64,000 nt of DNA from Deltaproteobacteria bacterium. GTDB taxonomy: Bacteria > Myxococcota_A > Polyangia > Polyangiales > JADJMO01. Where the stretch lies: positions 124,001 through 188,000 of the forward strand of contig JANYDK010000121.1 in NCBI GenBank assembly GCA_025363655.1. The letters run 5' to 3'. The translations under genes and the position numbers were made by a program. Shown here one piece after another: positions 48,723-53,787 of this stretch. The notes beneath the pieces were generated by a model. The model was not told the DNA's origin. It ran no database searches and saw nothing but the letters and a program-made list of their open reading frames with translations. Numbering within the stretch: position 1 is the stretch's first letter; each line of letters begins with the position of its first letter.

Positions 48723-50111
48723 TCAGCTCTCGGCCCGTCGCAGCGAAGGAAGTCCGACGGCGCAGGCGACCGCGAGGGCGAGGGCGACGCAGAAAATCGT
48801 CAGGGCGCGTCGGTGGAGTGAGACCGCCGCGCTCGCGTCGTCCGCGGCACCGATGGCGCTCGAGACGCGCGAGACGCCGAAGAGCACGCCGAGGATGAGG
48901 GTGCCGATGACGCCGCCGAGATAGCGCAAGGTCGCCATCATCCCGGCCGCGACGCCGCTCTTCGATGCGGGAATGGCGCTCATTCCTGCGCTCTGCGCCG
49001 GCGAGCTGCTGAGGCCGAGACCGGCGCCGAGGATGACGAGACCTGGCACCGGTGAGAGCAACGAACGGAGCGGCGTCAACAGCAAGACGACCATCCCGAC
49101 GAGGGCGACCGTCGTCCCCACGAGGGCGACACGACGTGCGCCGTGGCTGTCGGTGAGCCTTCCGGCGATCGGTGAGAAGACCACCATCGGCGCCATCAGC
49201 GAGACGAGGAGTCGCCCGGCGCCGCTCGCGCCGCTCCCGAGGACCATCCCGCAGACGTTGGGGAGCTCGAAGAGGAGCGCATACATCGCCAGATTGTGCA
49301 GTGCGATGAGCAGCCCGCTGGTGACGAACGGCAAGACGCGGAGGAGGCCGAGATCGACGATCGGCGAAGCCGCGCGACCTTCCACCCAGACGAAGATCGC
49401 GAGCAAGACGGGGCAGGCGAGGGCGAGGCGAAGATCGATCGCGCCGCCACGTCCGACGCCGAGCGCGAGGCAGGCGAGCCCGCTGCCGAGGAGGAGCGTG
49501 CCGAGGTAGTCGTAGCGCGCCGTCACCTTCGCCGGCGCCGCGGCGCTCTTGCTGCTGGTGCGCGCGAGCCACGCCGAGATCGGGAGGACGACGAGGTTGA
49601 CGACGAACACCGCACGAAAGCCGAACCACACCGTGATTTGTCCGCCGACGGGAGGGCCGAGGGCCGCCGAGAGCGCCATCGACGCGCCGAAGATGCCGAA
49701 CGCGCGTCCACGAAGGGCGAGCGGCAACTCGGTGCGAAGGAGCGCCATCGCGCTCGGAACGATCATCGCGCCGGCGGCGGCCATCGCCACGCGGGCGACC
49801 ACCAGCCAGGTCAGCGTCGGCGAGAAGAGCGCGAGGACCGCGCCGAGCGCGAAGGCCATTTGTCCGAAGGCGAGCGCGCGACGATGTCCGAGGAGGTCGC
49901 CGAGCTTGCCGCCGGGCGCCTGCATCACGATCGAGGTCACGAGATAGCTGGTGACGAGCGCGCGCGTCAGCGTCGAATCACTGGCCCCGAAGGCGGCGCC
50001 GATCGGCCGCAGGGCGACGCTGAGCATCGTCGAGTTGAGCGGTGCCAGCGCGGAGGCGAGCGCCATGGCGGCGACGAGACGGAGCGAGAGCCCCTGCGGT
50101 GCTTCAGCCAC
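48723..50111 (-). CDS. MFS drug-type transporter, DHA2-like
   Basis: A 462-residue membrane exporter with about 14 helices, the DHA2 layout. GKLGDLLGHRRALAFG is the MFS loop-2 motif; RVAMAAAGAMIVPSAMALLRTELP and GPPVGGQITVWFGFRAVFVVNLVV fit motif C-type drug/proton antiporters; GRLTDSHGARRVALVG is the loop 8-9 copy. The GTG at 50111 overlaps the end of the ATP-grasp gene by 8 bp, so it is the third gene of an operon with the split phosphotransferase. Likely exports a small organic molecule; which one is unknown. Confidence 0.9.
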   Translation of the reverse strand: MAEAPQGLSLRLVAAMALASALAPLNSTMLSVALRPIGAAFGASDSTLTRALVTSYLVTSIVMQAPGGKLGDLLGHRRALAFGQMAFALGAVLALFSPTLTWLVVARVAMAAAGAMIVPSAMALLRTELPLALRGRAFGIFGASMALSAALGPPVGGQITVWFGFRAVFVVNLVVLPISAWLARTSSKSAAAPAKVTARYDYLGTLLLGSGLACLALGVGRGGAIDLRLALACPVLLAIFVWVEGRAASPIVDLGLLRVLPFVTSGLLIALHNLAMYALLFELPNVCGMVLGSGASGAGRLLVSLMAPMVVFSPIAGRLTDSHGARRVALVGTTVALVGMVVLLLTPLRSLLSPVPGLVILGAGLGLSSSPAQSAGMSAIPASKSGVAAGMMATLRYLGGVIGTLILGVLFGVSRVSSAIGAADDASAAVSLHRRALTIFCVALALAVACAVGLPSLRRAES

Positions 50112-50907
50112 GCGTGATCGCTCGACGCTGCAGCAGATACAAAACCCCGCGTTCGAAAGCGAATTCGAGATCTTGGGTGCCGCCGAAGGTCGCCTCGCAG
50201 CGCGCGGTCAAGGCTTCGAGGGCGCCGAGCATCGCGTCGTCGAGGCAGAGTCGTTCGATCTGATCTTCGGGCACCGGCACCTCGGCGGTGCCACCGGTCT
50301 CGAGGAAGCGAATCGCCAAATCTTTCTCGCCGAGCGTGCGCGCGAGGATCGCTCCGCCGCGCGCCATTCGAAAACCGTCGGGCGTGACGAGCCCTTGCAC
50401 GACCGCCTCGCCGAGCCCCCAGGTCGCTTCGATCACGCGCTCGTCGGCGCCGCTCACCGGATGACGCGAGAAGAGCACGCCGGCGACGTCGGCGCGCACG
50501 AGCTTCTGCACGACGACGCCCATCTTCGGCTCACCGTCGACGCCGAGCTTCTTGCGATAGGCGAGGGCCGCGTCGGTGTGCGCCGAAGCGAGCACTTCGG
50601 CGATGGCCGCGCGAAGGCCCGCCGCGTCGTGCACGCCGAGGATCGTCGCATGTTGCCCGGCAAAACTGGCTGCTGCGCTGTCCTCACCGACCGCGGACGA
50701 ACGAACCGCGACGAGCCCACCGAGCTGGTGGAGAAGCGTCGTTTGGGCCGCTTCGTTTTCATCGCCGACGATCTCCGAGATCGCGTCGTGCGCGATGGCC
50801 ACGCCCGGCGGCACGGGCAACCCCGCACGGAGCGCGGCTCCGAGTTGAGTGGCCTTGCCGCCGAAACCTCGCTCTTCGTCCACCAGCTCGAGCGGGACGA
50901 AGCTCAT
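50104..50907 (-). CDS. PEP-synthase/rifampin-phosphotransferase-type ATP-binding subunit
   Basis: A 267-residue protein matching only the N-terminal ATP-grasp domain of PEP synthase, rifampin phosphotransferase (Rph) and the phenylphosphate synthase beta subunit. Motifs: GFGGKATQLGAALRAGLPVPPGV, VAVRSSAVGEDSAAASFAGQH, VVVQKLVRADVAGVLFSRHP, WGLGEAVVQGLVTPDGF, and GGTQDLEFAFERGVLYLLQRRAI. In PEP synthase the chain would continue into the His domain; here it stops at ITRG. The missing part is encoded by the gene just upstream, with an ATGA overlap. It should supply the phosphoryl transfer from ATP to the partner histidine. Confidence 0.88.
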   Translation of the reverse strand: MSFVPLELVDEERGFGGKATQLGAALRAGLPVPPGVAIAHDAISEIVGDENEAAQTTLLHQLGGLVAVRSSAVGEDSAAASFAGQHATILGVHDAAGLRAAIAEVLASAHTDAALAYRKKLGVDGEPKMGVVVQKLVRADVAGVLFSRHPVSGADERVIEATWGLGEAVVQGLVTPDGFRMARGGAILARTLGEKDLAIRFLETGGTAEVPVPEDQIERLCLDDAMLGALEALTARCEATFGGTQDLEFAFERGVLYLLQRRAITRG

Positions 50908-52604
50908 GCGCCGCCGAGCACGTGGACTTCACCACTCGTGCCGTCGACACGCACGCGCGCGCCGTCGGGGATCAGCGCCGTCGCCTCCTTGGTGCCGACG
51001 ACCCCGGGAATGCCGTACTCGCGCGCGACGATCGCTGCATGGCAGAGCTGTCCCCCGCGATCGGTGACGATGGCGCCGAGGAGCGGAAGAACGACGTTGA
51101 AATAAGGCGCCGTCGAGCGCGTCACGAGCACGTCGCCCTGCTGCAGTCGACCGAACTCGGAGGCGTTTTGGATGAGCCGCGCGGTGCCCTCGTAGATGCC
51201 GTCGTTCACCGAAAGACCGCGCACGATCTTCTTCGACGACGTCGTCAGCGCCTCCTTGAAGAGGTTGGTCAGCACGGCGTCGACCGCGCGCGTCGCTCGC
51301 TTGGCCGCGGGCGGCAGGATGTTGGGATCGGGCGGCCCACCCGGCTGTCCTCCGAGGAAAGCCGGGATGTCGGCGACCGTCTTGGTCTCGCGCCAGACCG
51401 CGCGTCGATGGACCTCTTCGAGCGAAGGACCGCCCTTGCCCGTGAGCAGCGCCCGCGCCTCGGGCAATTCGAGATCGACCGCTTCGTCGGCCGCCTTCAG
51501 CTTGCCGTTTTCGACGAGGCGACGACCGAGCTCGAGGAGCGCTCGGCGCGCGATGCCGATCGCCCAACAGTCCGCGTAGAGACCGCGTTCGTCACGCAAT
51601 CGATTGATGACGCGCGCCTCCTCGAGGAGCTCGTCGAAGCGCGTGCGATGCGCCTCGGGGACGAGCGCACGGAGCGCTGCCGTCTTCGCTTTCGCGTCCT
51701 CCGGGCGTGGTTTGAAGGTACCCGCGAGCGCGCCGCGGATCGCGCCGACGAGCACCTCGGGCATCTCGCCCGTCGCCTTGTCGCCGATGCTGTAGCTGAC
51801 CGCGCGGTGCCACACGAGATCGAGGAACGTTCGCGCCGCCTCGCCCGTCGCCCCCGGCGCAGCCCGCAAGGCCTCGAGCTTCTCCGCGGGATCGCCGTTC
51901 GACTCGAGAATTTTCCGAGCCTCCGCGTCGTCCTTCAACGTCGGCACCAGCGCTTCGAGCTCACCCGCCGAGATCCCATTCGACAGCGGCGTCGAGCCGC
52001 GCATCGAGCAGAGGATCTCGCCCGGTGATTTTCCCGTCCACTCCGCGACGTGGGCGAGGAAGTCGCCGGTCGGGAGGATGCACGTCATCGTGTACTTGTG
52101 GTGGAGGCCGATCATCGCCGCCACGTGCTTCTCGCAACGCTCGAGGTGCGCCAGCAGCGCAGCGTCGTCGAGGCTGGTCGGATCGATCGCCACCAGCTCG
52201 CGATGCTTCGCCGTCGCCGCCGGTTTGTCGGTGTCGTCCCAGGTGCGCAAATCTTCGCGCCAGCGCCTTTGCGCGAACGCCTCCCCACTCGTGCGAATGC
52301 GCGCCCGCATTCCAGGATGCAGTCGCGTCAGCAGCCAGAGAATCGGCTTCGGCGGCGGCCCCTTCGCCCCCTTCGGCGCCCCGAACGGCGCCGGCTGCTG
52401 GAACCAGAAGTCGTTCACGAATTCGATCTCGAAGTGACTGAGGAGCAGCCCATAGCGCGCAGTCCCCGCCATGAACGCCGCCTTGAATGCCACCGCCACG
52501 GCACTCCGCCCGAACCGCGGCATCGGCCGAGGAAAGTGCGCAGTCTCGGCCTCCCAAGCCCCAGGCCCCGGCGGCTCCCAGCGGATTTCGGTTTCGGTGG
52601 TCAT
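50904..52604 (-). CDS. Acceptor-binding plus swivelling His-domain subunit (Rph/phenylphosphate synthase-like)
   Basis: A 566-residue cytoplasmic protein starting at the ATG at 52604. The first 450 residues are helical and include LGRRLVENGKLKAADEAVDLE, which corresponds to the region just before the His domain in Rph. The C-terminal swivelling domain (about 465-566) has VTRSTAPYFNVVLPLLGAIV and GGQLCHAAIVAREYGIPGVVGT with phosphohistidine His522. Family order is ATP domain, acceptor domain, His domain; here the last two come first as a separate gene. The layout equals the alpha subunit of phenylphosphate synthase. Acceptor unknown: an antibiotic hydroxyl or a phenol are both possible. Confidence 0.85.
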   Translation of the reverse strand: MTTETEIRWEPPGPGAWEAETAHFPRPMPRFGRSAVAVAFKAAFMAGTARYGLLLSHFEIEFVNDFWFQQPAPFGAPKGAKGPPPKPILWLLTRLHPGMRARIRTSGEAFAQRRWREDLRTWDDTDKPAATAKHRELVAIDPTSLDDAALLAHLERCEKHVAAMIGLHHKYTMTCILPTGDFLAHVAEWTGKSPGEILCSMRGSTPLSNGISAGELEALVPTLKDDAEARKILESNGDPAEKLEALRAAPGATGEAARTFLDLVWHRAVSYSIGDKATGEMPEVLVGAIRGALAGTFKPRPEDAKAKTAALRALVPEAHRTRFDELLEEARVINRLRDERGLYADCWAIGIARRALLELGRRLVENGKLKAADEAVDLELPEARALLTGKGGPSLEEVHRRAVWRETKTVADIPAFLGGQPGGPPDPNILPPAAKRATRAVDAVLTNLFKEALTTSSKKIVRGLSVNDGIYEGTARLIQNASEFGRLQQGDVLVTRSTAPYFNVVLPLLGAIVTDRGGQLCHAAIVAREYGIPGVVGTKEATALIPDGARVRVDGTSGEVHVLGGA

Positions 52605-52710
52605 CTCGGCGTCTCCCTCTCGAGGACGCTGCATAGGCTGCGCGTCCATTGGCACATGATGCCTGAGTACGAGGGGAATTTGACGCTGGATCGACACGAA
52701 ATGGTCACAC

Positions 52711-52779
52711 GGGTGCAGGTGCAAGTGCAGGTGCGGGCGCGGGTTCGGGCGCAGGCGCAGGGCAGGCGCGAGTGCAGCG
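52711..52779 (+). repeat. GCRGGY hexamer array, longest copy
   Basis: About eleven hexamers (GCAGGT, GCAAGT, GCAGGT, GCGGGC and relatives) between the divergent phosphotransferase operon and LCCL gene. Confidence 0.85.
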
Positions 52780-52806
52780 CGATAGGCTCAGTGTCATTCT
52801 GTGTCG

Positions 52807-53787
52807 ATGCATTCGCGTTGGGCGGTTTCACTTCTCTGTCTCGCGGGCATCTCGTGCGCGACCGCGGAAGACGCCGGGCTCACGGGTGCGACCGATGCGA
52901 AGGTCGACTCGGCCATCGACTCCACGGTTGCGGATACGAACAGCGCGGATACGAACCGAGCCGACGATGCGGTCGATTCGGCGACGGTCGACTCGAGCAA
53001 GGGTGATGCGGCTGACGGCGGCACCGATATTGATGTGCTCAGCGACGACGCGATCGACGGCTCCGAGAGTTCGACCTCGGACGCTTCCGACACCTCGGAC
53101 ACCTCGGACACCTCCATTGCCGACACGGCGGTCGACGCCGACACAGGTCCCACGGCGGCGACGTGGACGACGGATGCGGTCTCGCATGCATGCACCCTCG
53201 GCGTGCGTTACGCGTATGTGTGCCCTTCCGGCGGCATCCCCAGCTCGGTGTGGGGGAGCGATCCGTACACCGACGACTCCTCCATCTGCACCGCGGGCGT
53301 GCACGCGGGCGTCATCACGTCGTCGGCGGGAGGCACCGTCGTCATCCAGATGAGCGCGGGCGCTGCGGCGTATGCCCCGTCGACGGCCAACGGCATCACC
53401 ACGCTCAGCTACGGCTCGTGGAGCTGCAGCTTCGACGTCATTCGACCGACCGGCGATGGTGGCACCGACGTCGTCGTCGACACGGCGCCACCGCCGACGC
53501 CCGCCACGTCGTCGACCACCGCCGCCGACCACGTATGCAGCATCGGCTCGCGCTACGCCTACGCGTGCCCCCCCGGCACTGCAGCCTCCATCTGGGGCAG
53601 CTCCCCCTATACCTACGACTCGGCCATCTGCACCGCCGCCGTCCACGCCGGCAAGATCACGCTCAGCGCCGGTGGCGACGTGACCCTCGAAATGCGCGCC
53701 GGCGAATCGGCCTACGTCGGCACGACCGCCCACGGAATCACGTCATCGTCGTGGGGCGCGTTCAGCTGCAGCTACGTATTCATCTAG
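52807..53787 (+). CDS. Lipoprotein with two LCCL-like domains
   Basis: A 326-residue protein starting at the ATG at 52807 (a GTG at 52801 is close but less likely). The signal peptide ends in LAGISC. Residues 20-118 are a low-complexity Asp/Ser/Thr/Val stalk with a SDTSDTSDTS core. Two copies of an LCCL-like domain follow (about 122-205 and 240-326): RYAYVCPSGGIPSSVWGS, then SICTAGVHAGVITSSAGGTVVIQM, and in copy two ICTAAVHAGKITLSAGGDVTLEM. LCCL modules bind lipids or polysaccharides in other proteins. Clear internal duplication; likely surface-exposed. Confidence 0.82.
   Translation: MHSRWAVSLLCLAGISCATAEDAGLTGATDAKVDSAIDSTVADTNSADTNRADDAVDSATVDSSKGDAADGGTDIDVLSDDAIDGSESSTSDASDTSDTSDTSIADTAVDADTGPTAATWTTDAVSHACTLGVRYAYVCPSGGIPSSVWGSDPYTDDSSICTAGVHAGVITSSAGGTVVIQMSAGAAAYAPSTANGITTLSYGSWSCSFDVIRPTGDGGTDVVVDTAPPPTPATSSTTAADHVCSIGSRYAYACPPGTAASIWGSSPYTYDSAICTAAVHAGKITLSAGGDVTLEMRAGESAYVGTTAHGITSSSWGAFSCSYVFI

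Follow-up and report, generated by a model that had tools for sequence, protein, structure and literature searches.

The locus considered here raises the question of what is achieved by three overlapping genes on the minus strand of a 64,000-nucleotide stretch of a contig from a deltaproteobacterial relative of soil myxobacteria (JANYDK010000121.1; this whole stretch is called here the window), which encode the two predicted subunits of a phosphotransferase, alpha and beta, and a transporter of the major facilitator superfamily (MFS). The operon is read in the order alpha, beta, MFS exporter gene, the first two genes overlapping by 4 nucleotides (ATGA) and the last two by 8 nucleotides. A preliminary description of the same DNA had reported the overlapping genes, a phospho-acceptor His522, an ATP-grasp subunit and a DHA2-like exporter, and these coordinates and domains were confirmed (Table 1). 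We consider it probable that the operon encodes a small-molecule dikinase of two components together with an exporter dedicated to it, and that the likeliest role of the operon is to inactivate and expel a toxic or antibiotic-like compound. This reading draws on computed evidence, namely gene order, domains, predicted fold, conservation of catalytic residues, a distinct clade and linkage to the exporter.

Two known dikinases serve as references. Rifampin phosphotransferase (RPH) is a single chain in the order ATP-grasp, RIF-binding and swivel domain; Lys22 and Arg117 are residues of its ATP site, Arg666, Glu667 and His825 act in catalysis, and the Arg666-Glu667 pair is required (Stogios et al., PMC4844700). 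HpeHI of Rhodococcus rhodochrous GD02, from hydroxyphenylethanone catabolism, is divided into the ATP-grasp component HpeI (PDB 9GOJ) and HpeH, which carries the acceptor and swivel domains; according to Dexter et al. (PMC12167813), its activity requires both components and yields AMP, the H581Q variant of HpeH is inactive, and CreHI and PpsAB likewise belong to this two-component kind.

The alpha protein consists of an acceptor (substrate-binding) domain (residues ~1-455) followed by a phospho-His swivel domain (~457-566). The phospho-His mobile domain PF00391 is its only Pfam domain (residues 488-558, E-value 1.1e-21), and His522 sits in TDRGGQLCHAAIVAREYGIP. When the AlphaFold2 model of alpha (predicted local distance difference test score, pLDDT, 92.3; predicted template modelling score, pTM, 0.91) was submitted to Foldseek, RPH structures ranked best. 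With a second aligner, residues 1-564 of the model matched residues 310-867 of RPH-Lm with a Z score of 22.5 and a root-mean-square deviation of 4.7 Å over 476 residues, a match that spans the RIF-binding and swivel domains and the whole length of alpha. Structures of phosphoenolpyruvate (PEP) synthase, pyruvate phosphate dikinase (PPDK) and enzyme I matched the swivel domain of alpha. No PEP/pyruvate-binding C-terminal TIM barrel was found, the likeness to PEP synthase and PPDK being limited to the alpha swivel and the beta ATP-grasp domain; residues 1-450 matched the substrate domain of RPH and no glycolytic enzyme. The proposal of a two-subunit dikinase with an RPH-type acceptor domain thus agrees with both the fold match and the Pfam domains.

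His522, whose retention in relatives was checked, is conserved in all 83 covered relatives and is aligned with the corresponding His of HpeH, PpsA and RPH. R337, D338 and R340, the predicted acceptor-site residues, are present in 84/84 relatives, and R337-D338 aligns with Arg666-Glu667 of RPH. In RPH, the residues that bind RIF phosphate are a Gln in block 1 and Arg-Glu and Lys in block 9. In an alignment at about 20% identity, Pro-Lys670 of RPH block 9 is replaced by Arg-Gly in alpha and the Gln336-Gln337 region of RPH has no counterpart. From this comparison, the acceptor pocket of alpha is predicted to have diverged, the rifamycin residues not being recognisably retained.

The beta protein is a stand-alone ATP-grasp domain (PPDK_N match, 2.4e-63). 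Its AlphaFold2 model (pLDDT 92.1) matched the RPH ATP-grasp domain with a Z score of 31.8 and HpeI with a Z score of 24.3. K18 and R69 align by motif (GGK and RSSA) with Lys22 and Arg117 of RPH. In the alignment, the N-lobe of beta is ~50 residues shorter than those of HpeI, PpsB, CreI and RPH.

To place these proteins among known dikinases, four yardstick loci (L155-L158) were found with an HpeI query and an annotated RPH (L159) was taken from the alpha search; the names CreH-like and Hpe-like were assigned here from neighbours and similarity. These loci are those of Rhodococcus JS3073 (L155, 97.6% identity to HpeI), Azoarcus KH32C (L156, a phenylphosphate synthase locus with a CBS subunit and ppcBDAG), Rhodococcus ruber Y14 (L157, 6950-9921, a CreHI-like pair) and Rhizobium (L158, an Hpe-like locus with biotin carboxylase). 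The split and inverted domain order had at first been presented as unusual. This view was not upheld, as HpeHI, CreHI and PpsAB share the layout and all known two-component dikinases in alpha-beta order are "order-inverted" in this sense; moreover, beta precedes alpha in the R. ruber locus, so that gene order is no stable mark of two-component dikinases.

HpeHI resembles alpha/beta in its acceptor-plus-swivel subunit and stand-alone ATP-grasp subunit, in a His within a GG...CH motif and in an RPH-like acceptor fold; it differs in the longer N-lobe of HpeI and in its biotin carboxylase, phosphatase and CoA ligase neighbours, and its description, as far as available, mentions no MFS or TetR partner, compared with the MFS partner here. 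PpsABC shares the alpha-then-beta order and the mechanism class but has a CBS protein as its third subunit and the carboxylase genes ppcBDAG as neighbours. CreHI (4-methylbenzyl phosphate synthase type) is likewise a two-component dikinase, whereas the CreHI-like R. ruber locus has the reverse gene order and contains a P450 and dehydrogenases. RPH shares the structures of both subunits and the Arg-acid pair of the acceptor site, but differs in its single-chain architecture. The sequence identity of alpha is 21% with PpsA, 20% with HpeH, 21% with CreH-like and 24% with RPH, whereas HpeH, CreH-like and PpsA are 44-50% identical to one another. Alpha falls outside the HpeH/CreH/PpsA clade, in a clade of its own with strong support. 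The preliminary distinction from phenylphosphate synthase, made from the absence of a CBS third subunit and of carboxylase neighbours, was borne out. The two-component split is an already known kind, of which this branch is, as judged from sequence, a separate clade.

Profile comparison gave matches of alpha and beta to RPH, PEP synthase, RedH/PigC and the PRK08296 group, all far under the curated cut-offs. The best full-length NCBIfam match of alpha was NF006149 (1e-38; 133 bits, cut-off 730), one of the PRK08296 families (NF006149-NF006153, "hypothetical protein"), yet alpha lies outside all of them by cut-off.

A scan of genome contigs with a single sequence gave no match, and an alignment of five alphas was used as the family query, which detected 80 loci in named genomes. 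The family is present in 32/318 genomes of the source organism's class (E <= 1e-60), and its members occur in Myxococcota, Actinomycetota, Acidobacteriota, Pseudomonadota, Planctomycetota, Chloroflexota and Cyanobacteriota; the copy of Streptomyces NBC_01001 is plasmid-borne. A total of 84 loci were collected, of which 79 members were aligned; the window alpha is 38-58% identical to these, its nearest relative being at 68%. Beta adjoins alpha in 83 of the 84 loci, and the remaining locus ends 34 bp past alpha. Three clades were distinguished by their partners: the window's clade, with an MFS gene downstream; a second, with a TetR gene directly upstream of alpha-beta (16/16); and a third, with a cyclic nucleotide monophosphate (cNMP)-binding domain fused to beta or encoded just 3' of it (25/25 testable loci). 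In a careful tree, from which near-copies and long-branch rows (L121 among them) were removed, each partner corresponded to one clade (support MFS 96/96, TetR 100/100, cNMP 100/99).

The MFS protein matches MFS_1 above its cut-off (7.3e-42), and its best NCBIfam match is EmrB/DHA2 TIGR00711 (4.4e-49; 167.5 bits, below the cut-off of 230.2). Among the loci of the window's clade reaching far enough downstream to be testable, an MFS gene was found downstream of beta in 36/37, directly or, in three of them, within ~600 nucleotides. MFS presence was determined by direct tblastn and placed on the tree, the first gene calls having missed the gene in L051, L052, L084 and L115. Of the 44 loci (16 + 28) that make up the sister clades, L083 alone has a homologous MFS gene, which is upstream and divergent. 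Measured to the start codon closest to the beta stop, the beta-to-MFS spacing is -8 nucleotides in 18/35 loci and -4 in 8/35. Pairwise identities of alpha correlate with those of the MFS protein (r = 0.85) as they do with those of beta (0.82), and none of 1000 permutations gave a value as high. The operon MFS is 35-47% identical to operon homologues in other genomes (nearest 61%). The same order and overlaps recur in other phyla, and this arrangement is far from chance. These results support the earlier claim that the exporter belongs to the operon, and the MFS protein is probably co-translated with alpha and beta from one transcript.

By analogy with RPH and HpeHI, beta would bind ATP and bring it to the alpha swivel domain, where His522 would accept the beta-phosphate while AMP and Pi leave. 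The swivel would then rotate to the RPH-like acceptor domain, R337, D338 and R340 placing the phospho-His, with R337-D338 standing for Arg666-Glu667 of RPH, and the phosphate would pass to a hydroxyl of the bound small molecule. The MFS protein would export either the phosphorylated product or the toxin in unmodified form, the compound handled being either taken up or self-made; a self-made product is a possible cargo. An exporter in one clade and TetR in another are features typically associated with the handling of xenobiotics or antibiotics, and inactivation plus efflux would therefore be the likeliest role, phosphorylation being coupled to export. More tentatively, the locus may represent a horizontally spread phospho-efflux module, in which a toxic or antibiotic-like molecule would receive a phosphate from the split dikinase and the phosphorylated product would leave through a dedicated, co-evolving MFS pump, sister modules being controlled by TetR or by a cyclic-nucleotide-binding domain. 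Several points weigh against detoxification by phosphorylation and efflux. The activity is predicted from sequence and models, and the DHA2 exporter is assigned by homology, so that its direction and cargo are predictions. One locus of the window's clade, L121, lacks the MFS gene, and the alpha/MFS correlation owes part of its strength to shared descent. No biosynthetic cluster was seen adjoining the operon, which gives no local support for self-resistance, and the TetR and MFS neighbours suggest detoxification and stop short of demonstrating it.

The layout and the ATP-grasp/swivel logic are equally those of a catabolic phenol kinase such as HpeHI, CreHI or PpsAB, in which case the MFS protein would be an uptake carrier for an aromatic substrate. 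We consider this unlikely, since alpha shares only 20-22% identity with PpsA, HpeH and CreH-like and lies outside their clade, the transporter scores with DHA2/EmrB drug exporters and not with aromatic-acid importers, and, of the carboxylase, phosphatase, P450 and dehydrogenase genes of such loci, none is conserved in the window's family; no ring-cleaving gene is conserved near its loci either. An ATP-dependent condensing or biosynthetic enzyme related to PigC/RedH, phosphorylating its substrate for activation, would also account for an exporter, which suits a product. The RedH and PigC models fit alpha/beta about as well as the RPH models, and an O-methyltransferase gene lies between alpha and beta in one locus (see below). 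However, the scores are far under the RedH and PigC cut-offs and no conserved biosynthetic neighbours were found across the 84 loci, which makes such an enzyme quite unlikely.

That the pair is a split rifamycin phosphotransferase is highly improbable: the RIF-binding-domain fold and the Arg-acid pair of block 9 are retained in alpha, but its identity to the annotated RPH and its scores with the RPH models led us to reject this assignment, the Gln336-Gln337 and Pro-Lys670 positions differ as described above, and specificity is expected to have diverged in distant clades (Stogios et al., PMC4844700). Of the antibiotic or phenol phosphotransferase system first proposed, the distinct and two-subunit character stands; neither substrate class is demonstrated by these results, and rifamycin as substrate finds no support. 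Finally, DHA2-like exporters are common, this genome holding seven matches to the operon MFS (itself included), and the exporter could be an unrelated neighbour. This is scarcely credible in view of the 36/37 conservation, the gene overlaps and the matched divergence; the other DHA2 paralogues of the genome are <=31% identical to the operon MFS.

According to a proposal by Stogios et al. (PMC4844700), the relatives of RPH belong to one broad small-molecule dikinase family, and Dexter et al. (PMC12167813) drew attention to two-component homologues that belong to other processes. The window's clade exemplifies such a branch: it recurs in Myxococcota and is also found in Actinomycetota, Acidobacteriota and Pseudomonadota. 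Its fixed exporter offers a convenient functional route to the substrate; if this proved antibiotic-like, new resistance or self-protection chemistry would be at hand. No description of the clade was found in the open-licence literature, although one may exist elsewhere, and the alpha-beta branch and its fixed exporter appear to be undescribed.

Several variants were observed within the family. A CBS domain was considered as the third module of the cNMP sister clade (L085, L087, L088, L092-L097, L104, L112, L117 and relatives) and rejected, the domain being cNMP_binding PF00027. Directly upstream in L092, L093, L097, L098 and L099 lie genes whose products fall into a single cluster and are about 1200 residues long where complete; that of L092 is a class III nucleotide cyclase with an AAA_16 domain. 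The enzyme of this clade is possibly a small-molecule dikinase under cyclic nucleotide control. In Comamonadaceae bacterium 2FH, the inserted O-methyltransferase gene (PF00891; L069:7284-8690) hints that the substrate there receives a methyl group as well as a phosphate. Relatives with the ATP-grasp, acceptor and swivel domains in one chain (L030:2-2173 and L032:5593-8175) branch beside the split family, which suggests that split and fused forms interconvert. In two Planctomycetota, beta and the MFS gene are separated by an SMI1/KNR4 (SUKH) gene (L070:7235-7729, L081:8516-8998). In Pseudonocardia (L066, L067, L084), an open reading frame starting like MenD, as recognised by eye, is located just upstream of alpha-beta-MFS, and the module may lie there in a menaquinone gene region.

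Table 1. Coordinates in the window of the predicted dikinase-exporter operon and of its upstream region
Feature	Position	Strand	Description
alpha gene	50904..52604	-	566 aa; PF00391 match, AlphaFold2 model
beta gene	50104..50907	-	267 aa; PPDK_N match, AlphaFold2 model
MFS exporter gene	48723..50111	-	462 aa, GTG start; MFS_1 match
intergenic region	52605..52800	.	separates alpha from divergent LCCL-domain gene

The alpha reading frame is open upstream to 52724; its start was set at ATG 52604 because this codon is preceded by the ribosome-binding-site-like GAGAGGGAG and agrees with the start of relatives. The intergenic region contains no TetR gene and no sigma-70-like match, and neither sigma-70 promoters nor terminators were found above chance. 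The genes around the operon in the window encode SIR2, the LCCL protein, cytochrome c, a methyltransferase and pirin; no carboxylase, CBS or catabolic genes lie beside it, and PADLOC returned 0 matches. Upstream of alpha, short imperfect G-rich direct repeats resembling GCAGGTGCAAGTGCAG occupy window positions 52715-52777. The divergent neighbour (52801-53787, plus strand) has two matches to LCCL, a domain more familiar in eukaryotes, and its N-terminus is probably lipoprotein-like.

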